Positions 6,284 to 36,150 of a stretch of DNA of 36,605 nt are shown here, piece after piece (positions within the stretch are counted from its first letter, which is position 1; each line of letters begins with the position of its first letter). A model generated the notes under the pieces. It was not told where the DNA came from. It saw only the letters and a list, made by a program, of their open reading frames with translations, and ran no database searches. The position numbers were made by a program, and so were the translations under genes. This stretch comes from Nitrospiria bacterium (GTDB lineage Bacteria; Nitrospirota; Nitrospiria; DASWJH01), in assembly GCA_036397255.1 (NCBI GenBank), contig DASWJH010000091.1, positions 1 through 36,605 of the forward strand. The letters are read 5' to 3'.

Positions 6284-6284
6284 T

Positions 6285-16519: not shown

Positions 16520-16576
16520 AAACGATGATTGCTTTTCCAGCAGGGTGTTGAAAAAGGTTGTATTTTTTCAATAGGT

Positions 16577-16685: not shown

Positions 16686-16726
16686 GATTCGGGTATTTCA
16701 ACATCCTGCCGGAGTTATTTCTCTTT

Positions 16727-18145: not shown

Positions 18146-18149
18146 AAAT

Positions 18150-18166
18150 ATTGCCGTTGCGGCAAT
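18150..18166 (-). promoter_or_regulatory. Hairpin abutting the sigma-factor start codon
   Basis: ATTGCCG and CGGCAAT are perfect complementary arms around a 3-base loop, ending only 4 bases before the TTG start. In the mRNA it would occupy the place of the ribosome-binding site. As DNA it could be an operator. A TAAAAT box is visible slightly upstream (about 18171-18176, minus strand), but no good -35 partner. Confidence 0.45.
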
Positions 18167-18337
18167 GTGTATTTTACACCAGGGGGATCATTGAATGGAA
18201 ATATAGATGGCCAAGGAAAGGGGTAACTATCCCGCCGACGCAACCTCCCCGGAGGTTCGACGGAGCGTTCGACCGAGCCCACGGCCAAGCCTCGCCGGGG
18301 GACTTTTAAAATCTAAGGCCGGAGTTTTGAATTGGAT

Positions 18338-19895: not shown

Positions 19896-20114
19896 ACCCG
19901 TAATAATATAACCCACCGAAATTCCTAGAGGTGGACGATTAGCTCAGTGGTAGAGCGCTTGCTTCACACTCCTAAATAACCTGCCGACGAGGACCCGTCA
20001 GAACTCAAAATACCTATGTCCAACAAAGGGATAAGTTGAGAACGGATTTTGGTTGGAATCGGTCTGAATGTGGCCGTTTGTGGCGGGATCGAGCACGAAA
20101 TGAGGACATAAATT
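19896..20114 (+). repeat. tRNA-Val 5'-half repeat, copy B
   Basis: The upstream block GTAATAATATAACCCACCGA is followed by GGACGATTAGCTCAGTGG at 19933 and the piece ends at TTCACAC (19969). The shared tail follows: AACTCAAAATACC, GTCCAACAAAGGGATAAG, TGGAATCGGTCTGAATG and the pair GAGCACGAAAT/GAGGACATAAATT (20091-20114). The 3' half of the tRNA (stem complement, T-arm, acceptor) is absent. It faces the same way as the other three copies. Confidence 0.8.
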
Positions 20115-20245
20115 ATTTTACGGTTTTGGATTTCTTACCGCTTCTGCTTACAAATTTTATGTATTAAGGGAGTTAAAAATTAAGGATTAAGTTGAAAAGG
20201 AAAGGGCAATACTAAAACTCACAATAAACGTTATTTTTAGGTGGA

Positions 20246-22813
20246 TTATGGTTTAATTAAAGGTCCATGCAGCTCTTGGGGTTTACCAAATATATAACCC
20301 TGAATTAAATAGACTCCCATATCTTTCATTACCTGCAGTTCTTTTTCTGTTTCAATACCCTCGGCAATAATTCCATCTGTCGAGGTTTTTCGCAATGCGT
20401 GGACCAAATCCTGCAAAACCAATCTGAACCTCTCTGAAGATACTGCCTGCAGAATAGTGGACCTGTCCAATTTGACGTGATCAGGAATTAAGCGAGCAAT
20501 AAATGGCAGAGAAACAAAGCCTGCCCCAAAATCATCAATGGCGAATTTAAAACCTTTGCTTCTCCACTTGGCGGCAATCTCAAGGTGTTCTTCCACATTC
20601 TGCAAGGCTTCCTCTTCCGAGATTTCCAGGACCACATCCATACCAGGGGGCTTTGGCGGTACTTCAATGCTCTTAAGCACGTTAAAATCCACGTTGATAA
20701 ACAAATTCTCTACACGGAATTCATGGCCCGCTTTAAGCTGTTTGTGAAAACAGAGACACTTCAATTCATGAAGCTTCCCGATGGCGTGGTATTTCTTAAA
20801 GAGCGCCAAAATACTGTGCTTGCCTTGAGGGTCACGGCTCAAGGCCTCAAAACCTACAAACTGTTTTAACCGTACATCCATAATGGGTTGAAATACCACC
20901 TTGATGGCCTGATCATCCAGTCGGTACTCCTCCTCTCCGATGTGAATCTTTTCTCCGCCTTTTTTGGCAATATACAGAGCTCGGTCCGCTAACCCAATCA
21001 ATTCCTCCTCCGTTGCGCCATGCTCAGGGTACACGGATACCCCTAAGCTGATATCTAGGCCTGTACAACCCGTAATGCTGAGCTGCTGTATACTTCTACG
21101 GATACGATTTATCACGACAAGCAACCCATCACGGTCAGTGTCTGGCAAAATAACCACAAATTCATCTCCACCCCAGCGAAAAACTAAGTCCGAACCTCGA
21201 ACACAATCCAACAGAATTTTGGAGACTTTTATTAAAACATTATCTCCCGCTTGATGTCCTAGGTTATCATTAATAGATTTAAAACCATCCAAATCACAGA
21301 TCAGGAAATTTATGATTTGTCTGTTTCGGTCTGCAAGAGCGATTTCTTCTTTGATTCGAGTTTTGAAATATCGGCGATTATAAAGTCCGGTAAGGGAATC
21401 CCGAATGGCTTGATCGGCTAAGGCCTCTTCGGCTCTTTTGCGCTCGGTAATGTCACGCACAATAGCAACAAATCGGGGTTCTTCCCCATGGGGGGAAATG
21501 TGTTGTAGGATGATTTCCACTGGAATGTCCGTCCCATTCTTATGCCTATGGATGGTTTGAAAGGTCAGAGAGGTTTTAGAACCGTTCAACAAAGGGGCGA
21601 CGTGTTTCCTGAATTGGGTTTCATCAAATTCTGGTTTGATATCCAATGGGGTCATATTCATCAATTCTTTTTCGCTATACCCAACCTGATCCATGGCCCC
21701 CTGGTTCACGTAGGAGAACTTGAAGGTTTGGGGGTTGAAAATGAAGACACAGTCCAGGGTCCTGTCCAAGGTGGTCTTAAACTGGTTCAAGATCAATTCC
21801 GCTTTTTTGCGCTTGGTAATATCCCATAAGACTACGGTAAAGATTTTTTCTCCATCCAAATCAAGTTTTGATATGGAGGCCTCCGCAGCAAATTCTTCCC
21901 CGTTTTTCCTCCTTCCAGCTATTTGACGCCGTTCTCCCATCCGTCGGGAAGTATCACTGGAACGATTAAATTGATCTACATGGTTATGGTGAGCTTGACG
22001 AAGCGATTCCGGGATAAGGATATCTATTTTTTGACCAAGAACCTCACTTTCACGATATTCAAATATTCCCTCCGCCCCTTTATTGAAGATGATGATCCGC
22101 TGGTCCTTGTCAATGGAGATAATGGCTTCATCGGCAATGTCGATAATCCCGGCAAAACGAGCTTCACTTTTTTTCAATTTGTTATTTTTGTCTTCCATTG
22201 TATTTCGGTTATTTCGAACCAAGACGACCATCCCGGTAAAGAGAGCGCCAAGAAGAATAATGGCACCCCAGTTGAACCGGGTAAGCCACAAACGGTCTTT
22301 CATGATGTAAAGATTCAAAGATTCTTGGAGTGCCTTTCCAAACTTATCAATACTGTGAATTACCCCATCATGGGCTTTCTCGGTTTCAGCTTGCATTAGG
22401 GGGTCTTGCTGGGCTTCCCAGTAGGTAACAAATAGGGCTTGAAGGAGACGTATATGGTGATCCAAAGAAGTCAGGAGACTTCCGTTTTTCTTGTCTTTTA
22501 GGATCGTTAGAGCCCCTTCCAAATCAGTTTCATTATCATATAATAGAAAGTGGTTTAATGCGAGTGCCTGGTCGATATGAGTCTGGATCTCTCGTTTTTT
22601 ATCTATTGTGGTCCCTTTAATTAAAGATTCCTCAAATTGAATATGTGCATGGGCTATATGTCTCATCAGGCTATCGGTCACCTGAATCAACGGCAAATGC
22701 CGTTTGGTAGATTTAGAAAAGACAGACATTGATAGGGAAACCAATATTATCGCAATGATGCTAATGGCGAACAGGGTTAGTTCAAGGGATTTGAATCTAT
22801 TGATCTTCTTCAT
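20246..22813 (-). CDS. Sensor protein with two PAS domains, GGDEF and EAL, 855 aa
   Basis: A periplasmic helical sensor is bounded by two membrane helices (about 10-32 and 180-202), as in four-helix-bundle or MCP-like sensor domains. Two PAS domains follow (about 215-340 and 345-465, each with the PAC-type end DITKRKKAE/DITERKRAE), then GGDEF (RWGGDEFVVI, GGDEF at 548-552) and EAL (FEALSRDP, Glu656; FINVDF; LEISEEEA; IDDFGAGF; VKLDRS; AEGIETE). Both active sites look intact, although the EAL domain is shorter and more diverged than in the gene at 4319. It is the only gene between tRNA-repeat copies B and C. The ATG at 22813 gives MKKINRFKSLELTLFAISII. Confidence 0.93.
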   Translation of the reverse strand: MKKINRFKSLELTLFAISIIAIILVSLSMSVFSKSTKRHLPLIQVTDSLMRHIAHAHIQFEESLIKGTTIDKKREIQTHIDQALALNHFLLYDNETDLEGALTILKDKKNGSLLTSLDHHIRLLQALFVTYWEAQQDPLMQAETEKAHDGVIHSIDKFGKALQESLNLYIMKDRLWLTRFNWGAIILLGALFTGMVVLVRNNRNTMEDKNNKLKKSEARFAGIIDIADEAIISIDKDQRIIIFNKGAEGIFEYRESEVLGQKIDILIPESLRQAHHNHVDQFNRSSDTSRRMGERRQIAGRRKNGEEFAAEASISKLDLDGEKIFTVVLWDITKRKKAELILNQFKTTLDRTLDCVFIFNPQTFKFSYVNQGAMDQVGYSEKELMNMTPLDIKPEFDETQFRKHVAPLLNGSKTSLTFQTIHRHKNGTDIPVEIILQHISPHGEEPRFVAIVRDITERKRAEEALADQAIRDSLTGLYNRRYFKTRIKEEIALADRNRQIINFLICDLDGFKSINDNLGHQAGDNVLIKVSKILLDCVRGSDLVFRWGGDEFVVILPDTDRDGLLVVINRIRRSIQQLSITGCTGLDISLGVSVYPEHGATEEELIGLADRALYIAKKGGEKIHIGEEEYRLDDQAIKVVFQPIMDVRLKQFVGFEALSRDPQGKHSILALFKKYHAIGKLHELKCLCFHKQLKAGHEFRVENLFINVDFNVLKSIEVPPKPPGMDVVLEISEEEALQNVEEHLEIAAKWRSKGFKFAIDDFGAGFVSLPFIARLIPDHVKLDRSTILQAVSSERFRLVLQDLVHALRKTSTDGIIAEGIETEKELQVMKDMGVYLIQGYIFGKPQELHGPLIKP

Positions 22814-22989
22814 ATTTTATGCAGTGTTTTAAAGATGAACTAATTAACAGATGGAGTTTGAAGTCACACCTATACATTGTAAATGTATAATAATTCTAGG
22901 GAATGTCAAATAAACGCGGGCGCCGATTTAAGGAAATATTATTCGTAATAATAGGTTCTACCCTTGATAAAACGATGAATTGATCAATG

Positions 22990-23165
22990 GACAATCTGCA
23001 TACAAACCCTTAATAGACCTATTATGTGGGCGATCAGCTCAGTGATAAAACGCTTGCTTCATACTCTATATTTACCTTCCAACGAGAACCAACCAAAACT
23101 CAAAATATCCATATCCAACAAAGGGATAAGGTTAGAACTCATTTTGACTGGAATCGGAAATCCGG
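22990..23165 (+). repeat. tRNA-Val 5'-half repeat, copy C (tail cut by RAYT-derived sequence)
   Basis: CATACAAACCCTTAATAG leads into GGGCGATCAGCTCAGTGA at 23028, and the tRNA part ends at TTCATAC (23064). The tail aligns with copies A and B (AACTCAAAATATCC, TCCAACAAAGGGATAAG, CTGGAATCGG) and then stops abruptly at about 23159, where sequence related to the RAYT element begins. D-arm changes (GTGATAAAA) show decay. A second partial upstream block (GTAATAATAGGTTCTACCC) is at about 22946. Confidence 0.75.
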
Positions 23166-23290
23166 GGACACGATCCCTAATTCCCCGATCGGTAGTTATG
23201 TTTCGAATGATGTAATGGTGCCACCGAATTCCACGAAATGCCGATGTATTTAAGAAATTCTCCAAAGATGAGCCAAGACGAGATTTGACC
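23166..23290 (-). mobile_element. Decayed RAYT-element fragment
   Basis: The motif at 23264-23290 repeats the 27-base unit found upstream of the RAYT gene at the left edge. Reading the minus strand from it, about 45 bases later a stretch (around 23206-23233) matches the RAYT 5' coding end; with one frameshift it reads EFGG-HHYIIRN (compare IEYPDAYYHVMNRG). The fragment ends in GGGGACACGATCCC, a sequence often seen near such elements (from memory). It joins repeat copy C to the truncated HD gene, so both were cut here. Confidence 0.55.
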
Positions 23291-23300
23291 CGTTTCCCTA

Positions 23301-24170
23301 ATGATCCGCGATATTTGTGCTCTGATTCAAAAAAGAGTTGTCCCATCCAATCGACTCTCAATTTGTGGTTATAATATTCAGAGTTTTCTACACGATATAC
23401 TTTCAGGTGATATTGATGCTGATCGTATGGATTATTTGCTTAGGGATTCTCATATGTGTGGGGTGAATTATGGCCTTTATGACCCAAATAGAATTCTAAA
23501 GAGCATGTGTGCATACGGCCGAAATGACACAATGGAATTACATGTAGGACTTCGTTTTAGCGCTCTTGGGGCAGTCGAAGATTTATTAATATCCCGTTAT
23601 CAAATGCATGGGCAGATTTATGGACATAAAACTAATCGGGCTTGTAATGCTATGCTTGACCTCATTCGTAAACAACTTAGGAAGGCAAAATGGAAATGGT
23701 ATTCCTCTTGTAAAACAATGGAGCAACTTTTATCAGCCTTTTCTGATCTTGACGATTTCTCGTTTAACCGGAAGTTAAGAGAGAAATCAATAGACAACGG
23801 CGCAGGAAAGGTAAAAGAAATAGCAGAAGAACTTTTTGTTAAACGGAAATTAGTGAAGAAAGTTTATGAAGAGAGGGTTGATCTTTCAAAAAATAAACAC
23901 AAAAGAGAGCATTGGGAAAAACAAAAAAGAAGCTTTGAGAGGAAAAAAATATTGTTTGTCCCAGATGAATTCAAGAATAAGGGTCCATCGGTAAAACAAA
24001 AAAATTATTATTTAAAAGTTCTAAAAAAAACAAAAGATGGATTTTATAAAGTACATGAACTAAAAGAATGTTCAACAGTGGTTCAATACCTACCAGAGGA
24101 AGAGGTTGTTTTTAGAATATATTCAAAGGGTGTGGATTTTGAAAGAGCAAAGAAAATAATGCCAGATTAA
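23301..24170 (+). pseudogene. HD-superfamily phosphohydrolase (SAMHD1/YwfO-like), N-terminally truncated
   Basis: The 289 residues begin in mid-domain (MIRDICALIQKRVVP) and contain the family block SGDIDADRMDYLLRDSHMCG, then VNYGLYDPNRIL and SRYQMHGQIYGHKTNRA. Relatives normally have about 130-150 residues before this, with the H...HD metal-binding residues. Those are missing, because the sequence immediately upstream is the RAYT-derived motif with a stop in frame (23286-23288). The ATG at 23301 has no ribosome-binding site. A catalytic product is therefore unlikely. Lys-rich, A+T-rich codon use matches the adjacent restriction-modification island. Confidence 0.8.
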
Positions 24171-24416
24171 AGTATTTTAGAATAAAATCAAACCAAAGAG
24201 TTTACAGGATTTCCTTTAAACTTCCCGCGCCTATATTGAATTGATAATTAAATATTATTAAATATCAACTCTTTTAATTCCTTAGGAAACCATTTCCTTA
24301 AAAACCTCATTTTGTTGTCTACCTTTCTCCATAGGGTCCCTCCGTTATTTAAATCTTTACCCTCGATTAGAAATTGATTTTAGACCGTTGTGATTTTTTT
24401 AAAGAAAAAGTCCGCT
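24171..24416. other. A+T-rich spacer before the controller gene
   Basis: I find no protein-like frame. The spacer separates the HD fragment from the restriction-modification genes and ends at the controller-box sequence. Confidence 0.5.
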
Positions 24417-24441
24417 ACTTATAGTCTGTAGACACTTTGTC
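24417..24441 (+). promoter_or_regulatory. C-box operator overlapping the controller/endonuclease promoter
   Basis: ACTTATAGTCTGTAGAC followed by ACTTTGTC has the layout of known C-protein boxes: two imperfect dyads with a central AGTC-TGTA-GAC core. A plausible promoter, TAGACA (24429-24434) with an 18-base spacer to AATAAT (24453-24458), overlaps the right half. That would fit activation from the left dyad and repression from the right one. The leader to ATG 24474 is short and has no ribosome-binding site, as often seen for C genes. Confidence 0.75.
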
Positions 24442-24473
24442 ATCATTTTGCCAATAATCCCACCTTATAAATT

Positions 24474-24686
24474 ATGAGCAACATTAAAAAACAATTTGGT
24501 GTGATAGTTCGGAAACTACGGAATAAAAAGGGTCTCTCACAAGAGGCCTTTGCGGATCTCTGTGGGCTCCATAGAACATATATAGGGGCTGTGGAAAGAG
24601 GGGAGAGAAATGTCTCCCTTGAAAATATAGAAAAAATTGCAAAAGCCCTCCGTGTGAGTATTTCGTTTATGTTCAGCCAAAAATGA
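24474..24686 (+). CDS. Restriction-modification controller protein (C protein, XRE-type HTH), 70 aa
   Basis: The whole protein is a lambda-repressor-like HTH: IVRKLRNKKGLSQEAFADLC, then GLHRTYIGAVERGERNVSLE and NIEKIAKALRV. Size and context are those of C proteins, which delay endonuclease expression until methylation is established. Its TGA overlaps the ATG of the endonuclease gene (ATGA, 24683-24686), so the two are translationally coupled. The upstream C-box is its expected target, giving a self-limiting loop. Confidence 0.93.
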   Translation: MSNIKKQFGVIVRKLRNKKGLSQEAFADLCGLHRTYIGAVERGERNVSLENIEKIAKALRVSISFMFSQK

Positions 24687-25294
24687 AAATAATTAAGACG
24701 GAATATCTTATAAAAGCTGGATCATTTCCTAAATCCCAAGCATGGGAGACTATATATAGGGAAATTCAAAAAGCAATCAAAGCAATAACGTGGCCTAGGG
24801 GAAGTAAGAGTTTCACTATTTATCCTGAAAGCGGTAAAAAGCGGGGTAAAGGTAATGGAGTGAAACCGTTAAAGGATGCTTTTTGCTTTAGCCTAAGTAA
24901 AAAAGGATGGAATCTTGAAACCCGTTTGCCAATTGGGGTGAGAAAATACCCTGGACCCATTGATGCAACAAAACAGTTAGGTGAAAACCAGTTTTTTGCT
25001 GTGGAGTGGGAAACGGGAAATATTTCCTCCAGTCATCGGGCTTTGAACAAAATGGCGCTCGGAATTAAAAATGGGATGTTAAAGGGAGGAACTTTGGTTT
25101 TGCCAACAAGGGGGCTTTATAAATACTTGACAGATAGGGTTGGAAACATTGATGAGATAGAACCGTATTTTGAATTATGGAGTTCGATGCCTTTTAAGGA
25201 TGGTATTTTGGCCGTAATTTCAGTTGAACATGATGCTACTAGTTTAGAGGTTCCACGAATAAAAAAGGGAACTGATGGCAGGGCTCTTATTTGA
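24683..25294 (+). CDS. BamHI-like type II restriction endonuclease, 203 aa
   Basis: Several blocks match BamHI as I remember it: ITWPRGSKSFTI, GPID, EWETGNISSSHRALNKMALG, LTDRVGN and EIEPYFEL, in the same order and spacing and at similar length (BamHI is 213 aa). The catalytic set is present: Asp94 (GPID), Glu108 and Glu110 (VEWETG), with Glu79 matching the BamHI Glu77 position. Cleavage at GGATCC or a close relative is therefore predicted, but recognition-helix residues cannot be judged by eye. The C-terminus ends shortly after KKGTDGRALI, lacking the BamHI C-terminal tail. It overlaps the methyltransferase gene tail to tail by 8 bases. Confidence 0.9.
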   Translation: MKIIKTEYLIKAGSFPKSQAWETIYREIQKAIKAITWPRGSKSFTIYPESGKKRGKGNGVKPLKDAFCFSLSKKGWNLETRLPIGVRKYPGPIDATKQLGENQFFAVEWETGNISSSHRALNKMALGIKNGMLKGGTLVLPTRGLYKYLTDRVGNIDEIEPYFELWSSMPFKDGILAVISVEHDATSLEVPRIKKGTDGRALI

Positions 25295-26540
25295 AAATTT
25301 GGTCCAAAAAGTTTATTTGGTTTGGGACTCTTTTCGGTTCATCCTCTGTGAGGCGATATTTATAGGTTGAATGCCCTGAACGTTTTCGTAATTTCAAGGC
25401 CTCTTCAGTAAACAACCGATTAAGATTCTTTCTTATTTTTTCTAAATGTTCCTGTTGTTCCCTTATTTTTTTGAATCTTTCTATAATTGGTTTACAACTC
25501 TCAATTTCGGATCCAATCCATCTTCTCCCCTTCATCTCGGCTACGATATATGTTGTTCCCGAGCCCCCAAACGGGTCCATAACCAGATCTCCCTCCTCTG
25601 TGGCAATATCTAAGACTCTATCCAACAGCTTAATTGATAATTCATTTGCCCCTCTGGTTTTAAATTTCGCGTGACGAACTGGAGGAATATCATTCCAAAC
25701 ATCTGTCAGGTTGACACCTTTTGGGTTCATTTTGTCCTTGTATCCCCCATAGTCTTTTATTTCTCCCCCGCAGTGCCTACAGGTCTCCATTGGTAATCGA
25801 GAAGGATGAAAGGTTTTTGGTAAGCGTCCCTTAATGAAGTAAAGCAGACTGTAATGTGAGGGATAGAGCCTTTTTGGCACCGGTAGACTAAATTTAATAT
25901 CAACAGTTATCCAATGTCGGAAAGTCAGGAATTTATCCAGATAAGAGGAAATATGGATGTTCCACTTAGGGAGGTTATAAACAAACAGGGAACCATTAGG
26001 TTTCAGTATCCTGCAACATTCTTCTAACCATCCATAGCACCAGCCTAGATAGTCGTATTTCTCTAATTGATCGTTAACCTTACTCCCATAATTTTTTCCT
26101 AAATTAAAAGGTGGATCCGCAAAAATACAGTCAACGGAGTTTTCCGGGAGGCTGCTCAATAAACTAAGACAATCTGTATTATAAAGCTCACCTAGAGAGG
26201 TTTGAAAAATAGGGGTTAATTTTTTAGGAGGAGAAGAGGGGGGTTTTCTTTTATAAATCTCCACTTCTTCTTTTAATACAAAAGGGGCGATGGCAGGGTT
26301 CTCATGAAGCATATTCTGGATTTCTTTTGGAATCTTCCCGGCCAGAATTGAAAGCTCGGTTTGATTGATTGAGAAAATTTTTGATATTTTTTTTATGAAT
26401 TTTTCAGATGGCTTCCCTTTCGAGTGTTCAAGTTGGCTTATATAAGATTTATCCACCCCCAATTTCTTTGCGAGTTGAAGTATGCTAAACCCCTTTGTTT
26501 TCCTAAGCGATTTAAGTTTCCCCCCAAAATTCATTCTCAT
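25287..26540 (-). CDS. Restriction-modification DNA methyltransferase with N-terminal XRE HTH, 417 aa
   Basis: Residues 1-65 form an XRE-type HTH (KLKSLRKTKGFSILQLAKKL, then GVDKSYISQLEHSKGKPSEK). The catalytic part has motif IV DPPF (142-145) before motif I MDPFGGSGTT (321-330), the beta-class order of amino-methyltransferases. A CRHC pair (254-257) lies in the insert between them, the likely target-recognition region. It should protect the site cut by the adjacent endonuclease. M.BamHI makes N4-methylcytosine, but DPPF alone does not decide between N4-cytosine and N6-adenine here. The HTH may allow self-repression. Upstream palindromes at 26573-26603 are candidate operators. Confidence 0.92.
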   Translation of the reverse strand: MRMNFGGKLKSLRKTKGFSILQLAKKLGVDKSYISQLEHSKGKPSEKFIKKISKIFSINQTELSILAGKIPKEIQNMLHENPAIAPFVLKEEVEIYKRKPPSSPPKKLTPIFQTSLGELYNTDCLSLLSSLPENSVDCIFADPPFNLGKNYGSKVNDQLEKYDYLGWCYGWLEECCRILKPNGSLFVYNLPKWNIHISSYLDKFLTFRHWITVDIKFSLPVPKRLYPSHYSLLYFIKGRLPKTFHPSRLPMETCRHCGGEIKDYGGYKDKMNPKGVNLTDVWNDIPPVRHAKFKTRGANELSIKLLDRVLDIATEEGDLVMDPFGGSGTTYIVAEMKGRRWIGSEIESCKPIIERFKKIREQQEHLEKIRKNLNRLFTEEALKLRKRSGHSTYKYRLTEDEPKRVPNQINFLDQIFK

Positions 26541-26572
26541 CCCCCCACAATTAAGAAGATTTATAACGCAAA

Positions 26573-26603
26573 AACTTTATAAAAGTTGAGTGAATTAGTC
26601 AAC
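26573..26603. promoter_or_regulatory. Two palindromes upstream of the methyltransferase gene
   Basis: AACTTT-ATA-AAAGTT (26573-26587) is a perfect dyad and GTTGA-N9-TCAAC (26585-26603) overlaps it. They lie 33-63 bases upstream of the methyltransferase ATG, where an HTH-bearing methyltransferase would be expected to bind its own promoter. Confidence 0.45.
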
Positions 26604-26665
26604 TATTTTCTGGTTTGCATTCAAAATTTTGAACCAATAAAGATTTGCCCTAATTTGGCGATTGT

Positions 26666-26935
26666 GTGAAAAAGGGTCTCAAAGACGACGGGTTTCATGA
26701 CTTTAGGCGAAGTGCAGTTAGAAATATGGTACAGGCGGGAATCCCGGAGATAGTAGCAATGAAAATATCCGGGCATAGGACGCGCTCAGTCTTTGACCGC
26801 TATGCGATTGTGAGTTCTAGAGATCTGGAACTAGCAAGAATGAAACTTACAGACCTTGCCCAAAAAAGGAAAGAAGTTCAAGAGCTCCTCGAAATAAAAG
26901 AGAGTCCCAATCAAATACTCATTCGGAAAACATAA
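26666..26935 (+). pseudogene. Tyrosine recombinase (integrase) C-terminal fragment, 89 aa
   Basis: The frame holds the second half of an integrase catalytic domain: His11-Asp-Phe-Arg14 (HDFRRSAVRNMVQAG), His37 (SGHRTRSVFDRYAI) and the nucleophile Tyr46. The first catalytic arginine and the whole DNA-binding part are missing; the apparent GTG start is only the edge of the open frame. It directly follows the methyltransferase promoter region, so the 5' part was probably replaced when the island was assembled. Its tail resembles the remnants at 8141-8368. Confidence 0.85.
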
Positions 26936-27043
26936 CAACAGGATATAAGGGACAAGCAGAGTTTCCCTTAGCAAACATTTTTGCAAAGGCCCCCTTCTCT
27001 AACCGATTCCAAGTGTTCACTTTTTAACGAGTCTGAGAATTAA

Positions 27044-27130
27044 AAATTATCGGATGAAATAAAGTATAACGATATCAGCAAACGTTTTGACAATCCTGAA
27101 GAATATTTCAATCGCTTTGTAATACCCTGA
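27044..27130 (+). pseudogene. Possible C-terminal remnant of an unknown gene
   Basis: A short frame between two stops reads SDEIKYNDISKRFDNPEEYF and ends NRFVIP. It is protein-like but has no start codon or family. It may be the leftover end of a gene. The remainder of 26936-27131 holds nothing I can support. Confidence 0.25.
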
Positions 27131-27131
27131 G

Positions 27132-28103
27132 TTATAGCCACCTTAAAGGAATCTCTGATCTTTTAATATTTACCACGACATCTGGATTCAAAGATGAAAT
27201 AATCATCTTAAGCGATTGTTGGTTTAAATCACTACTTATTGTAGGGCCAATTACTAATTCAACAATTGGGAATGGAATACCATATACGTCATCGACTGAT
27301 GCCTTAATAGCATTTTCAAAGCTCACTGTATAATATGGGATTACGTTACCCTTGTAACTTCTGAAAAATGGAAGGTCGGTACTCTGGCCTCTGTCAAAAA
27401 GTAGATCCACTGAACTAAAGTATACTAATCTCCATTCACGTTCTTGATGGAAATCTGGATGTTTAAAGCAAAATAAATATTCACCAACAGTTAAGGAGAA
27501 GGCCTGACAATATTCTGGCAAGAGAGTTGAGGTCACATCCTCTAACCCTTTTCCCGTTGTGGATGTAGACAAAGAGTTCAGAAAGGCCCCAATCGTTTCA
27601 TCTACTAATCTGGTTTGATCTGAGACATCATAGATTACTTTACGAAGAACGCATCTTCTCTCGATGAACCGAATTGTATGAAGGAAATCTATACCAATGG
27701 CATAGCCGCCACCTTCTCCCCGGTATCCTCTCCATTGGCTTAACAAATTTCCATCCTCGCAAAAACATGTAGCGAAGACAGAAAATCTATTAGAAAAAGG
27801 ATCAAAAGTCTGTACAATTCTTTTAATAAACTCTCTCTGAATTTCATTTAGGTTGGAGTCATTGGACCTCGACTTTAGTCGGGTTTCTATTAATGATCTG
27901 GAGTATTGTAATTCAGATGAGTCATTCATATACCTGAGATCGGTCATCCATATACTCTTACTTGATAAAATTCCAATTAACCCATCTGCTGATGTGTAAT
28001 GGAATAATACATTTGGAAATTCTTTATGATAAACACTCCATTTAGATAGTATTTCCTCTTTCAGTTGCGAAATAATGCTTTTTTCTGAATCTGAAATGTT
28101 CAT
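27132..28103 (-). CDS. DUF2971-family protein, 323 aa
   Basis: Near the N-terminus the family signature is visible (LFHYTSADGLIGILSSKSIW, then MTDLRYMNDSSELQYS, about residues 33-68), with later conserved-looking blocks SVFATCFCEDGNLLSQWRGY and HQEREWRLVYFS. The family has no established biochemical function to my knowledge; it is often found in variable genome regions. The HYTS and REWR patterns are conserved enough to suggest an enzyme. It is soluble, with no signal peptide. The ATG has GGA at a usable distance and lies 13 bases after the upstream gene, so the two form an operon. A+T-rich, like the neighbouring restriction-modification genes. Confidence 0.82.
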   Translation of the reverse strand: MNISDSEKSIISQLKEEILSKWSVYHKEFPNVLFHYTSADGLIGILSSKSIWMTDLRYMNDSSELQYSRSLIETRLKSRSNDSNLNEIQREFIKRIVQTFDPFSNRFSVFATCFCEDGNLLSQWRGYRGEGGGYAIGIDFLHTIRFIERRCVLRKVIYDVSDQTRLVDETIGAFLNSLSTSTTGKGLEDVTSTLLPEYCQAFSLTVGEYLFCFKHPDFHQEREWRLVYFSSVDLLFDRGQSTDLPFFRSYKGNVIPYYTVSFENAIKASVDDVYGIPFPIVELVIGPTISSDLNQQSLKMIISSLNPDVVVNIKRSEIPLRWL

Positions 28104-28116
28104 ACTAAATCCAGGT

Positions 28117-28674
28117 TTAGTTCTTAATCGAAATCCCCGATTTAAAATTTTCTATCTCAACGCCAAGAAGATAAATACCTCCTCTATTTTCCACTGCAAT
28201 GGCACTGGCTTGGTTTCCTTTATTCGTTGTCAGTTTCAAGAATGCTATATTGGGAGGTTTGTTATCATTAGCTGTGCCAAACTTACTCCTATCGGGGTGT
28301 AATATAATAGGATAATCATCGTCAGTAAAAAGAAGTGCTGATATCTCTATTTCCAAATCACTGTCTTTGATTCTTTTTTTAATTTCACACACAACCCGAC
28401 CAGTCTTTTTTTCTACTATCGACGTTCGTTTAAAGCCACTGAGTATTGTGTAGTTATTTTTATCTTTTAAGTTAATTGAATTATTCTTTATTTGTGCAAT
28501 AGGGCTCTTATTCGGCCCCAATAATTTAAAGGTTGCTGCAAGCTCGCCAGTTTCAGGATTTTTCGCAAGTGAGATCAAAGGAATCCCTTTGTATTCTATT
28601 GGATTCGTAACATTGCGATAGTATATTCCGCCGATTTTTGCACTATAAGAATTAGCTGGTTCCCACAGGGTCAT
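28117..28674 (-). CDS. Hypothetical protein, 185 aa, first gene of the DUF2971 operon
   Basis: No family is recognised. The sequence alternates short hydrophobic and polar stretches (GGIYYRNVTNPIEYKGIPLI, SINLKDKNNYTILSGFKRTS, GRVVCEIKKRIKDSDLEIEI), which suggests a beta-rich fold such as a beta-sandwich or short beta-helix. There is no signal peptide, membrane helix or catalytic motif. AAAGGA lies about 10 bases before the ATG. It is followed by the DUF2971 gene after 13 bases. A partner or inhibitor of the DUF2971 protein is possible but is only an inference from position. Confidence 0.7.
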   Translation of the reverse strand: MTLWEPANSYSAKIGGIYYRNVTNPIEYKGIPLISLAKNPETGELAATFKLLGPNKSPIAQIKNNSINLKDKNNYTILSGFKRTSIVEKKTGRVVCEIKKRIKDSDLEIEISALLFTDDDYPIILHPDRSKFGTANDNKPPNIAFLKLTTNKGNQASAIAVENRGGIYLLGVEIENFKSGISIKN

Positions 28675-28758
28675 AAATTATCAGTCCTTTTGAGGTTGAA
28701 AATTTTTATTGGAAATACTTCTTTTAATTTTCCAAGGACTATACCATTATTCAGAAAT

Positions 28759-29014
28759 GAGCACAATTCTGAGCACAGTTGACGGGGCGGGACCAATCTG
28801 TAATAATACAACCCCTTGATAATCTTATTAAGTGGGCGATTAGCTCAGTGGTAGAGCGCTTGCTTCACACTCCTTACTTACCTACCAACTCTAACCCATA
28901 AAAACTCAAATAACCTATATCCAACAAAGGTATAAGTTAAGAACATTTTTTGGCTGGAATTGGCTTGAACGTGGTCGTTTGGGGTGGGCTCGAGCACAAA
29001 TTGAGCACAAAATT
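28759..29014 (+). repeat. tRNA-Val 5'-half repeat, copy A (best preserved), with flanking GAGCAC pairs
   Basis: GTAATAATACAACCCCTTGA leads to GGGCGATTAGCTCAGTGG at 28834, and the tRNA part ends at TTCACAC (28870), i.e. position 38 of a tRNA-Val(CAC). The expected 3' strand of the anticodon stem is absent; TCCTTACTTACC follows instead. The tail shares TATCCAACAAAGGTATAAG and GCTGGAATTGGCTTGAACG with copies B and C. Paired repeats GAGCACAATT/GAGCACAGTT (28759-28780) and GAGCACAAATT/GAGCACAAAATT (28992-29014) stand on either side. Confidence 0.85.
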
Positions 29015-29119
29015 TTTTTTACCGCCTTTAATATCTGTGACTTTCACCTGGAAGAGGTCCTTAATGTATGTTCCCCCCCATTTACAAGCTCCTTTTCGGA
29101 ATTTTTTAATTACTCCTTA

Positions 29120-29142
29120 CCATGGGATCTATAATCCCATGG
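29120..29142. repeat. Perfect 9-bp inverted repeat
   Basis: CCATGGGAT (29120-29128) and ATCCCATGG (29134-29142) flank a CTATA loop in the non-coding stretch 29031-29413. A terminator or operator role cannot be decided; no T-run follows directly. I see no gene in this stretch. Confidence 0.5.
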
Positions 29143-29413
29143 GTGTCACATCCTTTCACTTTTTCTCCTAAATTTTTCAAATAGTTACTTAACCCCCCCC
29201 AGAATAAGATCTTTCCTTTGTGCCGGTTTTGTGTTTAGAGCATCTTAACTTCAATTTTGTGTTTTCTCGCAGACCAACAGTCAACTTTTTAGCTGTTTCT
29301 AAGTATTTTCCTGAAAATCAGGCAAAAACTTAACTACTTTAATAAGTGTACACATTTTAATGGCCAAGTTTTTAACCAGTTTGAATTTTTTTCTTTTTAT
29401 TTAAGAAAAATTA

Positions 29414-29442
29414 TTGACAGTGGATTTTATTTCTGATATTTA
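29414..29442 (+). promoter_or_regulatory. Strong candidate sigma-70 promoter of the large YD-repeat gene
   Basis: TTGACA (29414-29419) is followed after exactly 17 bases by TATTTA (29437-29442). Part of it, CAGTGGATTTTATTTCTGAT (29418-29437), is repeated with few changes at 29443-29463. The ATG is at 29503 behind AAAAGGAAAAAA. Confidence 0.6.
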
Positions 29443-29502
29443 CAGCGGGATTTTATTTTTGATGAAATTATTCATATTCTAAATCAAAAGGAAAAAATAG
29501 CC

Positions 29503-32500
29503 ATGGATTGGCGAAGATTCCCCCCATCTTCTATTATCCACACTTCCTTTACCTTTCTTTTCGGTTTCGCTTTTTTTCTGTTCTCCTTTTCTTCCCTTCA
29601 TGCCTCAGCCCCTGTGTTCCTTTCCGTGGGTGTAGAACCCGAAGCGGTTTCCATCAATACCCAAACCAACCAGGCCGTTGCGGTTCATAAAGGATCCAAC
29701 GACTTAAAAGTTATTGACCTTTCCACCAATACCGTTACTTCTACTATTTCCTTCTCCTCCCGTCCTATTGATGTGGCGGTGAATTCCCAAAACAATGTGG
29801 CCGTGGTGGTGCTGGAAAAGATCGACAGCATCAAAATTATCGATTTAACCACCGGCCTGGAGTTGGCCACGGTGGTGGTAGGAAAAGACCCTCAAGAAGT
29901 GGCCATTGATCCAGGAAATCAAATCGCTGTGGTGACCAATCAAAAAGATGACACGGTCAGTTTTGTGGACCTGCTGGCCTATTCGGTTCTACAGACCGTT
30001 TCCGTGGGAGAAAAACCCTTAGGAATTGATATCAACCTATCAGCACAGATCGCGGTGGTGGCCAATGAAAAATCCGATACACTTTCCCTAATCGATCTTC
30101 CCAGCCGTACGGTGACTCACACGATAGCGGTTTCTGAGAAGCCCCGCCGTGTGGCCATCAATACACAGACCGGTCAGGCGGTTATTACCCATGAAAAACT
30201 CAATCAGATCAGCATCGTTGATCCTTCCACTCAAACCGTATTAAACACACTTTCCGTTGGGAAATCCCCAGATGGGGTAGCTGTCAATCCCACTACCAAT
30301 CAAGCACTGGTCTCCAACGAAAAGGCCGATAGTCTAACGTTAGTGGATCTGGCAGCAGCAACAATTGTAGGAAGCATTGCCGTTGAGCGAAACCCGAGGG
30401 GTGTGGCCATTCATCCGGGAATCAACCTTGCGGTCTCTGCCAACAAAAAAAGCGATACGGTTTCGATCATTGATTTATACACCGTTACCTTGACCAATCC
30501 CGCGCCGGTGGGAAAAGACCCTCAAGGGGTGGGGGTCAATATCAATAAAGATATTGCGGTGGTGGCCAATAAGAAAAATGACACGGTCTCCATACTGGAT
30601 CTTCCCCAAGGCACCCTTTCAGCCACCATCTCCGTGGGAAGAGATCCCCAGGGAGTGGCGATCAATCCCCAGACCGACCAGGCCTTGGTGACAAATAAGA
30701 AAGACAACTCCCTCACGTTAATCGATCTCATGAGCCTTCAGGCCACGGGAACCTTGAATGTTGGAAAAGACCCCAATGGGGTAGCCATTAACCCAGCCAC
30801 CAACCGAGCGGTGGTTGCCAATAAAAAGGACAACACCGTATCCATAGTAGATCTCTCAATACCCTCGGTTTTAAGCACTATCCCAGTAGGAAAGGACCCC
30901 ACCGGAGTTGGCATAGATGCCAATAGCAATCAGGCCTTAATCACATTAGAAAAAGATGATACGGTGATGGTTTTGGATCTGGCATCCGAAACCGTCATTA
31001 ACACAATACCCGTTGGAGAAAAGCCTCAGGGAATCGCCATCGACACAGGGCTTAATCTATCGGTCATTACCAATAAAAAAAGCAATACCTTATCGGTTAT
31101 CGATCTAGCCACCAAAACACTGATTCAAACAGTAAATGTAGGAAAAGATCCCATTGGCGTGGCGGTTCATCCTCTAACCCAAGAAGCGTTCGTGGCCAAT
31201 CACGGAGATGACACCGTATCGGTTGTGGATTTGACCACTTATACGGTCACTGAGACCATAGCGGTGGGAAACAGGCCACGGGATATCGCCATTCATCCCG
31301 CCCTCAATCTTGCGGTGGTGACCAATGAGGGAAGCGATGATGTCACCATCTTAATTCTTGGGGCGCCTCCTGTTCCCACCATCACCAGCTTTTCTCCTAC
31401 AAGCGGTCTTGAAGGGGCTGAGGTCATCATTACTGGAGATAACTTTGATCCCAACCAATCAAACAACACGGTTAAGTTTAATGGGGTTGAGGCAGTAGTT
31501 TCCGCCGCTACCGTTACCAGCATCACCACCAACGTTCCCACAGGGGCCACCACAGGGCCGATCACTGTGACCACTTCCGGAGGGACGGGAACCAGCGCCA
31601 CGGATTTCACAGTCATCACCGGACCGGTTATTACAAGTTTCTCACCCACAACAGGGCCCTTCGGAACCCCTGTAACCATCACAGGCCAAAATTTCGATGC
31701 GATTGCCTCAAATAACCAGGTGGATTTCAACGGCACCCCGGCCATTATTACATCTGCAACCGAAACTCAAATCACCACCACGGTTCCTATGGATGCCACC
31801 ACAGGCCCAATTAACATCACCTCTCCTCAAGGAACCGGCTCAAGCACCAATCCTTTTACCGTTACCCTGAGCAAAGATTTTTCCATCACAGCCAATCCTG
31901 CCATTGCATCGGTGATTCCCGGAAGCTCCGTATCCTATTGGATCACATTGAATCCCATTGATGATTTTACACAGCTTGGTCAATTAAATGTCCTGGGCCT
32001 TCCAACGGGAGCAACGGCCAATTTTACTCCTGCTTTGATCGGCCCCAACGGCAACTCCTTTTTGCAGATCACAACGGATGGGACAACTCCCGCAGGGCAA
32101 ACTTCCCTGACCGTTCAAGCCGCCGCAACCATTGACGGAAACGATGTTACCCGAACAGTCAATGTCACGCTGGATGTTCAAGCCCCGGGACAAACGGCCC
32201 TTACCGGCCAGGTATTGGATGAACACGGCGGGCCGTTGAAAGATGTGACCATTACCTTAGGTGGGGCTACATTGACGCCTTTGGGGACAACGGATGAAGC
32301 CGGAAATTTCTTTGTCACAGGAGTGCCTACCGGGACTCAGACGATTCTCATTGACGGATCAACGGCCAATCAGCCGGGGATAGAATACTCAACCATTCCC
32401 GTAACCGTTAATGTCCAGGCAGGTATTGTCAATTCCTTGGGATTCACCCCGTATTTACCTGAGCATCCTACAGTAGAGTTGATTCCCATTACCCCCAGTC

Positions 32501-35500
32501 AAGATACAGTCTTAACCAACCCGGATATTCCGGGATTCGAGATGACTATTCCTGCTGGAGTAAATATTATCGGCTGGGACGGGCAAGCCAATACCGAAGT
32601 GGGTGTGATCGAAGTGCCCATTGATCGCTCTCCGCTTCCCCCAGGTCCTTCCAATCTTACCTCCAATGTTGTTTACCTTTTTTCTTTTGGAAAGTTTGGC
32701 GGAGGTGTCCCAACAGGTAATGTTCCCGTTACTACCCCAAATGTGGTGGGTGGACTTCCCGGGGATTCGGTGGATCTTTATTATTTCGATGAATCGCCGG
32801 ACGGAACACGGCCTAATGATTGGTTGCAGTATGGCACGGGGACTGTTTCATCCGATGGGACCCTCATCATTCCCGATATCAATCCTTCCACAGGGCTACC
32901 CTATGGAATGCCGCGTTTTTGCTGTGGAGGCCAAAGACCGGTTCTTCCGGCTCAAGTCCAAGCAGGTGGAGGAGAAAGTAATGGTCAGGTTGACTCCGGG
33001 AAAGAAGACGGTGAGCCTGTCAATGTAGCCACAGGTTTTTACAGCTATACAAAGACGGATATGGTGCTGCCTGGAATTATTCCTTTAGTTGTGGACCGGA
33101 CCTATCGAGCTAACCTGAATAACTCGGGTCCCTTTGGAATAGGAACTAGTTGGTCCTATGATACCTTTTTACAACCGCCACCAAATGGTTCCCCGGATGC
33201 ATTGATTTTATTCTCTCCAGGAAACCGCCAGGATTTATTCTCAAAGCAACCCAATGGGACTTTTATCAATACCACCACGCCGGCACTGAGAGGGACCATT
33301 GTTACCCTAAACGGGGGTAACCGTATACTGACCTTTAAAGATAATAAAGTGTGGACTTTTGACACCAATGGGAGGCTGATTTCACAGCAGGACAGAAACG
33401 GAAATACCGTTACCTTAACACGGGATGGGCAGGGCAGAGTCACGGAGCTTACTGAACCAACGGGAAGAATGTTGACAATGAACTACACGGGGGCCAACCT
33501 TCGAATCGATAGCATCCGGGATCCTCTGCTCAGGCTAGTGCAATATAATTATGACGGTCTGAACCGTTTGATTGAGGTCATTGACCCCAAAGGAGGGAGC
33601 ACGCAATATACATACGATGCTTCTAATCGTGTGTTAACCATTACCGATGCCAGAAACATCACCTTCCTGACTAATGAGTATGACAGTTCCGGGTGGGTGA
33701 TTAAACAGACACTGGCCGATGGGGGGATTTTTACATTTGATTACACCACAACCGGGGATTTTATAACCTCCACCAAAGTGACTGATCCGCTTGGTAATGA
33801 GACGACCTATCGTTTTAACCGCTCCCGGTACCTTATCAGCCAATCCGATGCCCTGGGCCAGACGACCCTGTTTAAACGAGACCCCGCAACGAACCTTCTT
33901 TTAAGTACCACCGATCCCTTGGGAAGAAAGACGACGTTTACCTATGATACCGCAGGAAATGTCACATCCATCACAGATCCTGAACAGAACGTTACCCAAT
34001 TTACCTATGAAACCACATTCCACCGGCTGACTTCTACTACCGATGCCTTAAACCAAACCACAACATTTGAGTATGACACCAACGGAAATCTGACCAAGAC
34101 AATAGATCCTTTACTGAACGAAACCACGATTACCTACAACACCGCTGGCCAGCCGGTAACGGTAATTGATCCATTATTAAACACCATGCAATTTGAATAT
34201 GACACGAACGGCAACCTGATCGCCACTGAAGACCCCCTTGGGAACAGGACAACAAGAGTTTATGATTCGGTCTCCAGATTGATTGTTCTGACCGATTTTT
34301 TGGGAAGAAAAACGAAACTCGATTATGATGCCCTCAATCAGGTTAGCCGAATTACAGATGCATTAAATGGGGTTACCGATTTTACCTATGATGAAAATGG
34401 AAATCTCCTTAGCGTTAAGGATGCAAACAACCATACTATAATTTATACCTATGATGTTCAGGATCGTTTGGAAACTCGTACCGATCCCCTAGGTCGCCAA
34501 GCATTTTATACCTATGACTTCAACGGAAATTTAAAAACCTTTACCGATCGCAAATTGCAGGTTAATAATTTTACCTATGATCCATTAGATCGAAGAATTT
34601 TTTCTCAATATGATGATGGGAGCACGACTGCTTTTAATTATGACACAGTAGGTAGATTAACCGTTGCGGAGGATTCAACTTCGGGAAGAATGGAATTTGT
34701 TTATAATACACTTGACCGATTGATCCAGGAACTCACTTCCCAGGGAACAGTGGAATATCAATACGACACAATTGGCAGACGGACTAGTATGACCGTCAAT
34801 GGCCAGACTCCGGTGACATACGGATATGATTCCAATTCCCGTCTGACTCAAGTAACTCAAGGAACAAAAATCGTAGGGCTTGGCTATGATTCAGTGGGAA
34901 GAAGAACAAGTCTTTCTTATCCCAATGGGGTTAATACCACCTACACATACGATTTCGCTTCTCGATTAACAAATATTCTTCATCAAGGTCCGAGTTCCAT
35001 TATTGAAGACCTTTCCTATAGCTATGATGCTGCGGGAAATCGAATCTCCTTTAATAGGACAAATGGAACAGCTACTCTACTTCCAGACGCTGTTCAAGCT
35101 GCCTACGATGCCGCAAATGAGCAAATTCAGTTTGACAGTACGACACCCAACCTTACCTATGACTCCAATGGGAACCTGACTTCTCAAACCCATATCGGTG
35201 GAACCACGACATATACCTGGGATTCAAGGAATAGGTTAGTTGCTATCAGCGGGCCGGGGTTATCGGGAAGTTTTGTTTATGATCCTCTGGGAAGAAGAGT
35301 AAGGAAAAGCATTAATGGGATGACAACTGATTTTCAGTATGATGGAGATGATGTTATTTCGGAAATTGGTAATTATTCTTTAGGTGCAACCTATTTGCGG
35401 AGCATGGATATTGATGACCCATTTATTCGAATGTCAGAAGTCAATGAATATTATCACAATGATGGGCTTGGTTCTGTGGTTGCTCTCACGGATCAGGTAG

Positions 35501-36150
35501 GTTCTGTTCAAGATTCTTATATCTTTGATCCATTTGGTTTTTCAACCAATATTGGCAGCAGCAGTAATAGTTTTCAGTATACTGGGCGGGAAAATGACAC
35601 AACAAATTTGCATTATTATAGGGCACGGTATTACTCACCAACGTTCCAACGTTTTTTGTCCGAGGATCTTCTATGGTTATTTGGCCAGCACGATAATTTT
35701 TACGCGTATGTGGGAAATAATCCCGTAAATCTGATTGATCCCATGGGTTTACAATTTAGGTTGCCGGATTTCTTTTCTGGAACTTTTAGTTTTACAATTC
35801 CCACTCGATGGACAGGTGAATGGGTTAGTTGGAGCTTTACGGCAACAGTCGACAGATACGGAAGAATCTATGTAAGTCCTTGGGGCCCTGGGGTTGGACG
35901 TGCTCCGGAGGACATTTCCGGTGCAGTCACAGCAAACTGGATATTTCAAAAATGTAAGCCAACTCCGGAACAATTGTCCAATTTCCTAACGGCCCATGGA
36001 ATTACAGGGGCATTAGGTAACGGAGGTGGGGGAAATATTATTATTTCACCGGGAAATGGTTCGGCTTGGGGAGTTGGTTTGTTGACAAAACAGGGAGGGG
36101 CGAATTACAGTTATACCTATCTGTGGAAAGACACAGAGGTAAGTTGGTAG
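29503..36150 (+). CDS. Giant exported Rhs/YD-repeat protein with 14 propeller repeats and IPT/TIG domains, 2215 aa
   Basis: A signal peptide or anchor (about 15-34, TFLFGFAFFLFSFSSLHASA) is followed by 14 tandem repeats of about 42 residues (about 35-620; pattern DPxGVAINPxTNxAVVANKK, then DDTVSIVDL...VGK), as in YVTN/YncE beta-propellers. Then come two IPT/TIG Ig-like domains (about 623-790, each opening ITSFSPT), another Ig-like region, a carboxypeptidase-regulatory-like domain (about 905-985, LTGQVLDEHGGPLKD), a DUF6531-like Rhs entry (about 1170, GEPVNVATGFYSYTKTDMVL), many YD repeats, and the Rhs core end (RARYYSPTFQRFLSEDLL ... NLIDPMGL, to about 2083). A unique C-terminus of about 132 residues remains. 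Rhs shells usually enclose a C-terminal toxin or effector. Here the tail, Gly/Ser/Trp-rich with a single Cys, matches no toxin I know by motif. Confidence 0.92.
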   Translation: MDWRRFPPSSIIHTSFTFLFGFAFFLFSFSSLHASAPVFLSVGVEPEAVSINTQTNQAVAVHKGSNDLKVIDLSTNTVTSTISFSSRPIDVAVNSQNNVAVVVLEKIDSIKIIDLTTGLELATVVVGKDPQEVAIDPGNQIAVVTNQKDDTVSFVDLLAYSVLQTVSVGEKPLGIDINLSAQIAVVANEKSDTLSLIDLPSRTVTHTIAVSEKPRRVAINTQTGQAVITHEKLNQISIVDPSTQTVLNTLSVGKSPDGVAVNPTTNQALVSNEKADSLTLVDLAAATIVGSIAVERNPRGVAIHPGINLAVSANKKSDTVSIIDLYTVTLTNPAPVGKDPQGVGVNINKDIAVVANKKNDTVSILDLPQGTLSATISVGRDPQGVAINPQTDQALVTNKKDNSLTLIDLMSLQATGTLNVGKDPNGVAINPATNRAVVANKKDNTVSIVDLSIPSVLSTIPVGKDPTGVGIDANSNQALITLEKDDTVMVLDLASETVINTIPVGEKPQGIAIDTGLNLSVITNKKSNTLSVIDLATKTLIQTVNVGKDPIGVAVHPLTQEAFVANHGDDTVSVVDLTTYTVTETIAVGNRPRDIAIHPALNLAVVTNEGSDDVTILILGAPPVPTITSFSPTSGLEGAEVIITGDNFDPNQSNNTVKFNGVEAVVSAATVTSITTNVPTGATTGPITVTTSGGTGTSATDFTVITGPVITSFSPTTGPFGTPVTITGQNFDAIASNNQVDFNGTPAIITSATETQITTTVPMDATTGPINITSPQGTGSSTNPFTVTLSKDFSITANPAIASVIPGSSVSYWITLNPIDDFTQLGQLNVLGLPTGATANFTPALIGPNGNSFLQITTDGTTPAGQTSLTVQAAATIDGNDVTRTVNVTLDVQAPGQTALTGQVLDEHGGPLKDVTITLGGATLTPLGTTDEAGNFFVTGVPTGTQTILIDGSTANQPGIEYSTIPVTVNVQAGIVNSLGFTPYLPEHPTVELIPITPSQDTVLTNPDIPGFEMTIPAGVNIIGWDGQANTEVGVIEVPIDRSPLPPGPSNLTSNVVYLFSFGKFGGGVPTGNVPVTTPNVVGGLPGDSVDLYYFDESPDGTRPNDWLQYGTGTVSSDGTLIIPDINPSTGLPYGMPRFCCGGQRPVLPAQVQAGGGESNGQVDSGKEDGEPVNVATGFYSYTKTDMVLPGIIPLVVDRTYRANLNNSGPFGIGTSWSYDTFLQPPPNGSPDALILFSPGNRQDLFSKQPNGTFINTTTPALRGTIVTLNGGNRILTFKDNKVWTFDTNGRLISQQDRNGNTVTLTRDGQGRVTELTEPTGRMLTMNYTGANLRIDSIRDPLLRLVQYNYDGLNRLIEVIDPKGGSTQYTYDASNRVLTITDARNITFLTNEYDSSGWVIKQTLADGGIFTFDYTTTGDFITSTKVTDPLGNETTYRFNRSRYLISQSDALGQTTLFKRDPATNLLLSTTDPLGRKTTFTYDTAGNVTSITDPEQNVTQFTYETTFHRLTSTTDALNQTTTFEYDTNGNLTKTIDPLLNETTITYNTAGQPVTVIDPLLNTMQFEYDTNGNLIATEDPLGNRTTRVYDSVSRLIVLTDFLGRKTKLDYDALNQVSRITDALNGVTDFTYDENGNLLSVKDANNHTIIYTYDVQDRLETRTDPLGRQAFYTYDFNGNLKTFTDRKLQVNNFTYDPLDRRIFSQYDDGSTTAFNYDTVGRLTVAEDSTSGRMEFVYNTLDRLIQELTSQGTVEYQYDTIGRRTSMTVNGQTPVTYGYDSNSRLTQVTQGTKIVGLGYDSVGRRTSLSYPNGVNTTYTYDFASRLTNILHQGPSSIIEDLSYSYDAAGNRISFNRTNGTATLLPDAVQAAYDAANEQIQFDSTTPNLTYDSNGNLTSQTHIGGTTTYTWDSRNRLVAISGPGLSGSFVYDPLGRRVRKSINGMTTDFQYDGDDVISEIGNYSLGATYLRSMDIDDPFIRMSEVNEYYHNDGLGSVVALTDQVGSVQDSYIFDPFGFSTNIGSSSNSFQYTGRENDTTNLHYYRARYYSPTFQRFLSEDLLWLFGQHDNFYAYVGNNPVNLIDPMGLQFRLPDFFSGTFSFTIPTRWTGEWVSWSFTATVDRYGRIYVSPWGPGVGRAPEDISGAVTANWIFQKCKPTPEQLSNFLTAHGITGALGNGGGGNIIISPGNGSAWGVGLLTKQGGANYSYTYLWKDTEVSW

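Follow-up and report, generated by a model that had tools for sequence, protein, structure and literature searches.

A DUF2971 gene and the gene for a 185-aa protein directly upstream of it form a real, rare and mobile two-gene unit, which, as far as present evidence goes, does not amount to a system of a categorically new kind. The pair lies in the window, by which we mean the complete stretch of 36,605 nt analysed here, contig C91 of a 3.35-Mb Nitrospiria genome. It is best regarded as a horizontally moving cassette, and an abortive-infection-type anti-phage module is the most likely role, a reading which we hold with about even confidence. The main new points are the specific partner of DUF2971, a tRNA-Val array which carries the pair, and a profile link between DUF2971 and AbiGi. 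Furthermore, the pair is a minimal version, made up of two genes of which one is a dedicated partner, and is well suited to toxicity and phage-challenge tests. Its layout is as follows.

28117-28674, reverse strand: gene for the 185-aa beta-rich partner, start codon ATG, first gene of the pair
28104-28116, reverse strand: intergenic gap of 13 bases separating the 185-aa gene from the DUF2971 gene
27132-28103, reverse strand: DUF2971 gene, 323 aa, start codon ATG, second gene of the pair

Both reading frames were found in the tight same-strand arrangement with a 13-base gap that an earlier note on this DNA had described, and the A+T-rich composition reported there corresponds to a local GC content of about 36%. 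In pairwise comparisons of three homologous pairs, 63-71% of the codons differed at the third position and 20-33% at the second. In every comparison and for both genes, the divergence at third positions is thus roughly two- to threefold that at second positions, which indicates that both are under purifying selection and kept as proteins. An RNA antitoxin in this region was also considered and rejected, as an Rfam scan of positions 22500-29500 gave no match. The number of promoter-like sites (7) equalled the chance expectation (7.0), and that of terminator-like sites (3) was slightly higher than expected (1.3).

Close homologues of the 185-aa protein were sought in 396 genomes of the phylum and 270 genomes of the class and were detected in G029 (47% identity) and G161 (49%). 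Together with the window, close copies of the gene are present in three of the 270 class genomes, which belong to three different families. All three copies are located directly upstream of a DUF2971 gene, the product of which is 61% (G029) or 56% (G161) identical to that of the window. The junctions between the two genes measure +13 bases in the window, +9 in G029 and -14 in G161, where the start of the DUF2971 gene lies within the end of the 185-aa gene. The three paired DUF2971 proteins constitute one clade with a support of 100/100, far from the other members sampled; path lengths in the tree from the window protein are 0.57 and 0.69 within the clade and 2.87 to the next nearest member. 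The suggestion of a two-gene unit is thereby borne out for this clade.

A general co-occurrence of the two families was rejected, as only one DUF2971 clade is paired. No copy of the partner was detected by its profile next to 40-odd other DUF2971 genes (flanks of about 1 to 5 kb), nor did DUF2971 or AbiGi profiles give a match next to some 17 distant relatives of the N-terminal domain of the partner. DUF2971 normally occurs without the partner, and the N-terminal domain of the partner has distant relatives without DUF2971. When contigs across GTDB were scanned with the alignment of the 185-aa protein, the G029 locus and no further case was returned, which marks the partner as rare. The pairing, rare as well, is confined to one DUF2971 clade, within which it is strict, and the co-occurrence rests on three genomes. 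Viral contigs and phage records contained no relative of the 185-aa protein, and a pattern search of the viral contigs gave no DUF2971 of the window's subtype; one satellite-phage DUF2971 was found among the viral and phage records searched.

The partner itself matched nothing in Pfam, NCBIfam, PHROGs or PADLOC. Structure predictions of both proteins were made from three-sequence alignments; for the 185-aa protein the AlphaFold model reached a mean pLDDT of 62 on this shallow alignment and shows only beta structure in residues 10-125, while the part that follows is unreliable. The earlier description as beta-rich therefore agrees with a prediction of moderate confidence for the N-terminal two thirds. 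The first 100 residues have distant relatives with 21-30% identity, and in the paired partner this N-terminal beta domain is extended by a C-terminal block. In this block, ILHPDRSKFGxANDNxxPNI, nearly every position is identical among the three pairs, which makes it a natural candidate for the contact with DUF2971.

The distant relatives of the N-terminal domain include a protein of about 141 aa whose gene is conserved beside clpB in the sampled Nitrospira-type genomes, with a ComM-like ATPase gene also nearby in several of them, and a 165-aa protein in a further genome (G306). Relatives of 173 aa are encoded on small plasmids of Klebsiella and Leclercia together with inovirus-type Gp2, recombinase and HTH genes. 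No DUF2971 gene was found near the relatives in Nitrospira, in G306 or on the Klebsiella and Leclercia plasmids.

The pair is accessory, mobile cargo, as can be seen from its surroundings in the window.

6313-6349, forward strand: J1, most diverged tRNA-Val half-site, 74% over 97 bp, end points approximate
19933-19969, forward strand: J2, tRNA-Val half-site with 1 mismatch
23028-23064, forward strand: J3, diverged tRNA-Val half-site, 79% over 158 bp with J4, left junction of the segment that holds the pair
24474-24686, forward strand: control protein of a BamHI-type restriction-modification system (PADLOC Control_protein, 1.4e-28)
24683-25294, forward strand: BamHI-type endonuclease (PF02923, 9.3e-61; PADLOC REase_II, 4.7e-68)
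25287-26540, reverse strand: methyltransferase of the restriction-modification system (PADLOC MTase_II, 8e-135)
26666-26935, forward strand: C-terminal fragment of a tyrosine integrase (phrog_1, 2.4e-9; PF00589, 1.9e-5, below its cut-off)
28834-28870, forward strand: J4, displaced 5' half of tRNA-Val(CAC), identical to the intact gene on contig C106, right junction of the segment that holds the pair

The intact tRNA-Val(CAC) gene of the same genome is located on contig C106 (6015-6089), and the J4 copy is a perfect match of 37 bases which is cut after the anticodon. When the right-hand junction (28800-29022) was searched against the genome, it was found in exactly five places, namely itself, the intact tRNA locus and three others in the window (19900-20121, 23000-23157 and 6279-6373). 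The sequence that follows the tRNA half is common to the copies in the window and differs from the 3' half of the tRNA. Displaced tRNA fragments are known to mark the ends of integrated islands (PMC4383910), and the window may thus be read as a row of elements which entered one tRNA-Val site successively. The segment between J3 and J4 (about 23028-28834) holds the pair, the BamHI-type system and the integrase fragment. The position beside a restriction-modification system and an integrase fragment, as given in the earlier note, was recovered in full: a BamHI-family endonuclease, its cognate N6/N4 methylase and the control protein are all present between 24474 and 26540, next to the C-terminal part of an integrase. 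The methyltransferase bears an N-terminal HTH domain.

At the intact tRNA-Val locus on C106 an AbiGi homologue is encoded (C106:6445-7194; PF10899, 23.5 bits, cut-off 22.4). Reading away from the tRNA, its place corresponds to the one which the DUF2971 pair takes at the junction in the window, and two more genes without known function follow it on C106.

The other two loci show a comparable picture. In G029 the pair lies with a small GIY-YIG gene between lpd and lipA, and no recognised defence gene stands beside it. Five relatives from that family, and likewise the genome of the window, have lpd and lipA next to each other, either separated by about 10 nt or overlapping slightly, which identifies the segment in G029 as an insertion; in a sixth relative (G007), lpd is not followed by lipA. 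The pair of G161 is followed directly by the defence candidate PDC-S02 (5.2e-58), and YafQ is encoded nearby. Known or candidate anti-virus genes are thus found beside the pair in two of the three cases. The accessory function proposed at the outset is in accordance with a pair that is framed by tRNA-Val half-sites in the window and inserted between lpd and lipA in G029.

The 323-aa protein belongs to PF11185, DUF2971 (6.9e-9; 37.4 bits against a cut-off of 22), and matched phrog_1762 with 4.5e-22. Members of this widespread family were found in 41 of the 396 Nitrospirota genomes and in more than 130 plasmid records by our searches. One PDC-S31 model of PADLOC gave a weak match to residues 64-159 of the window protein (9.2e-5, no cut-off shown), and other DUF2971 members matched PDC-S31 models with values down to 2.8e-15. 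The abbreviation PDC stands for 'phage defence candidate' (PMC11514479) and, judged by the label 'S', PDC-S31 would be a single-gene candidate, whereas DUF2971 is accompanied here by a dedicated upstream partner. The earlier statement that neither protein has an established function consequently needs a qualification for DUF2971, for which PDC-S31 is a prior defence annotation, and stands for the 185-aa protein, which matches no family.

Among 25 divergent DUF2971 proteins, the invariant or nearly invariant positions are Y36, N60-D61, E64, L121-S122, W124-R125, Y127, G133, Y158, K214, E221, E223, R225, G286-P287 and a terminal S-x-x-P-x-R. The corresponding Y, NDP, W..Y, G, Y, K, E.E.R and G are retained in a canonical set of the family, for which hhalign gave a match of 98.7% to the divergent set. 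All residues that are invariant in the family (Y, ND, W..Y, G, V.Y, K, E.E.R) are present in the window protein. The conservation of the HYTS, YMND and REWR blocks, noticed earlier in the single sequence, is hence a property of the family, since key residues of the blocks are invariant or nearly so in the 25 divergent members and their equivalents mostly recur in the canonical half. Such a set of invariant residues suggests an enzyme. The structure model of DUF2971 (pLDDT 44.5) is unusable for fold assignment, fold searches of the PDB with the models of both proteins gave nothing significant, and no PDB match was found for DUF2971. In the PDB sequence search, TAL-effector matches of some 40 residues each, none of which contained a stretch that was significant by itself, were taken as chance, as were matches to DUF1359 and RIFIN.

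DUF2971 is likely to be kin to AbiGi, the product of the first gene of the lactococcal abortive-infection system AbiG, as judged from profile comparisons. In Pfam scans of single DUF2971 members, a weak AbiGi match was obtained for 4 of 25 (best 0.011). A profile of six aligned AbiGi homologues from Nitrospirota scored 43.4 against DUF2971 in hhalign (probability 78%), compared with a maximum of 15.6 for column shuffles (n=30) and with 10-16 for most other real profile pairs. The canonical set scored 38.8 against AbiGi, with a shuffle maximum of 21.0, and an AbiGi profile matched a Legionella DUF2971 at 4.4e-4. At a low threshold the DUF2971-AbiGi alignment is collinear across the whole domain and comprises five blocks: H-x-T; [CS]F-C/T-E; Y-G with G-F; V-x-Y; and E-x-REWR.

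Like the pair of the window, AbiG is a two-gene cassette. There are also differences: AbiGi and DUF2971 are separate Pfam families, the window protein has no match to PF10899 at E<=1 so that the relation exists at the profile-profile level, and AbiGi is named first in AbiG, whereas DUF2971 is the second gene of the pair. A second gene of the AbiGii type was not recognised, the neighbours in the window being the 185-aa orphan and the integrase fragment, and the Nitrospirota AbiGi query retrieved no plasmid-borne AbiGi homologue. No statement of the kinship was found in the open library searched, in which a single paper names DUF2971. If the link is true, the large 'unknown' family DUF2971 turns into testable abortive-infection parts. 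The mechanism of AbiG was described in the 1990s and would gain a wide set of relatives. Lactococcal AbiGi and AbiGii are each non-toxic alone in E. coli (PMC3985639), and Pfam labels AbiGi a putative 'antitoxin', so that kinship to AbiGi does not in itself make DUF2971 a toxin.

The neighbours of other DUF2971 genes are also suggestive of defence. The gene stands behind QatC and QatD in Agrobacterium fabrum, with VapBC nearby; in Agrobacterium sp. T29 there is an overlap with the gene for a KAP NTPase that matches QatA and PifA, close to VapBC and an integrase. On plasmids of E. coli and Serratia the next gene after DUF2971 encodes an abortive-infection protein, which in E. coli is of the AbiJ-NTD5/Abi_C type. 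An overlap with an NTase_sub_bind gene, behind which a Polbeta/HsdS reading frame lies, was seen in one genome (G074), and the record of a Streptococcus satellite phage ends with a DUF2971 gene. Named defence neighbours were present in 4 and an integrase or recombinase in 6 of 16 plasmid or satellite loci, a small sample drawn from the best matches in which plasmids are accessory DNA anyway. The loci read do not look like housekeeping operons, a setting which the earlier note had named as evidence against its proposal. DUF2971 seems to act as a module that is joined to varied neighbours, namely Qat or KAP NTPases, AbiJ-NTD5/Abi_C, nucleotidyltransferase genes and, in the clade described here, the lineage-specific beta protein.

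The guess of phage defence made from the window alone has thus gained from PDC-S31 and from the AbiGi profile link. For an abortive-infection-type module, we infer the following course of events. The beta protein would be made first, bind DUF2971 and hold it inactive. Infection by a phage would release or trigger DUF2971, which would then probably attack a nucleotide or nucleic acid target and stop the phage, perhaps along with the cell. DUF2971 would be the effector enzyme, with a putative site built from the blocks [H/K]-Y-T, N-D-x-x-E, W-R-x-Y-x-G, V-x-Y and E-x-E-W-R. Alternatively, the 185-aa protein may sense the phage. As most DUF2971 proteins occur without the partner, the family in general needs no such protein. 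The confidence in this role is kept at an even level because the evidence from context is suggestive and AbiGi alone is non-toxic.

This last point leads to a reading with the roles exchanged, in which DUF2971 is a regulator or antitoxin-like component, as AbiGi is thought to be, and the active part is the 185-aa protein or a gene elsewhere. It draws on the profile kinship to Pfam's putative antitoxin and on the lack of toxicity of either AbiG protein alone, and we consider it improbable in view of the enzyme-like invariant polar and aromatic residues of DUF2971 and its frequent occurrence without the 185-aa partner. That same occurrence bears on a classical toxin-antitoxin or addiction module, which would stabilise the mobile element and have no phage role of its own: a TA toxin that usually lacks a recognisable dedicated antitoxin gene would be unusual. 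An addiction module would otherwise fit the small partner in first position, the tight or overlapping junction, the mobile setting defined by the tRNA junctions and the TA genes near other DUF2971 genes (VapBC) and near the G161 pair (YafQ), and it is given a similarly low probability. An ordinary accessory metabolic or stress gene pair, hitch-hiking on mobile DNA, is brought to mind by the position of the G029 pair among lipoate and pyruvate dehydrogenase genes and by the relative of the partner's N-terminal domain conserved beside clpB in Nitrospira. The absence of the G029 insertion from relatives and the repeated association of DUF2971 with defence genes make such a hitch-hiker quite improbable.

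A different question concerns the chemistry. An ADP-ribosyltransferase activity of DUF2971, of the DarT or the H-Y-E type, would be compatible with the defence module preferred here. The first motif, H-x-[TS], reads HYTS in the window protein and resembles that of DarT (hhalign 28.3, shuffle maximum 17.9); Tox-ART-HYD1 matched 5 of 25 members weakly (best 0.024), over its own first 20 positions in the cases where these are given, and DUF2971 has an invariant E-x-E. These weak matches to Tox-ART-HYD1 and DarT are confined to the first motif. On the other hand, the hhalign probability for DarT is 9.5%, the alignment in its later part places the E-x-E off the glutamate of DarT, the canonical half of the family mostly has K or R instead of H, and there is no PDB match. 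With support confined to the first motif and with unaligned glutamates, an assignment as DarT or ADP-ribosyltransferase was not accepted, and this chemistry is regarded as doubtful.

DarTG consists of the DNA ADP-ribosyltransferase DarT and the macrodomain antitoxin DarG. The pair shares with it the first motif (HxT..L..I..xxL) and, as a working analogy, the layout of an enzyme with a partner. It differs from DarTG in that the window has no PF14487 match and no macrodomain partner, the 185-aa protein having no Pfam match of any kind, and in that the region of the catalytic glutamate does not align. A further system, CmdTAC, comprises an mRNA ADP-ribosyltransferase with an antitoxin and a SecB-like chaperone (PMC11618068). 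Here the likeness is conceptual only, in that an enzyme is restrained by partner proteins until phage infection; the pair has two genes and no SecB-like match, and no sequence relation was found. The most far-reaching proposal would be that DUF2971 and AbiGi belong to one large, unrecognised superfamily of abortive-infection effector enzymes, possibly ADP-ribosyltransferase-like and combined with different sensors or inhibitors, with the 185-aa protein as a new class of partner and the pair as a new anti-phage system. We judge this joint claim to be rather unlikely.

Other parts of the window carry genes that deserve mention. Beside J2, an HSP90-like ATPase (HATPase_c_3) is encoded at 18338-19804 on the reverse strand, with PADLOC matches to a type II restriction enzyme and TmtA; it is a possible defence gene of the neighbouring segment. 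Just outside J4, the forward-strand gene at 29503-36150 encodes a protein of 2215 aa with a YNCE-like beta-propeller, TIG domains and RHS repeats, which looks like an RHS-type exported protein. Finally, positions 10500-19500 have a GC content of 50-60% and contain RND efflux and sigma-factor-type genes, whereas the flanks have 36-48% GC, and this contrast probably reflects a different origin of the block.
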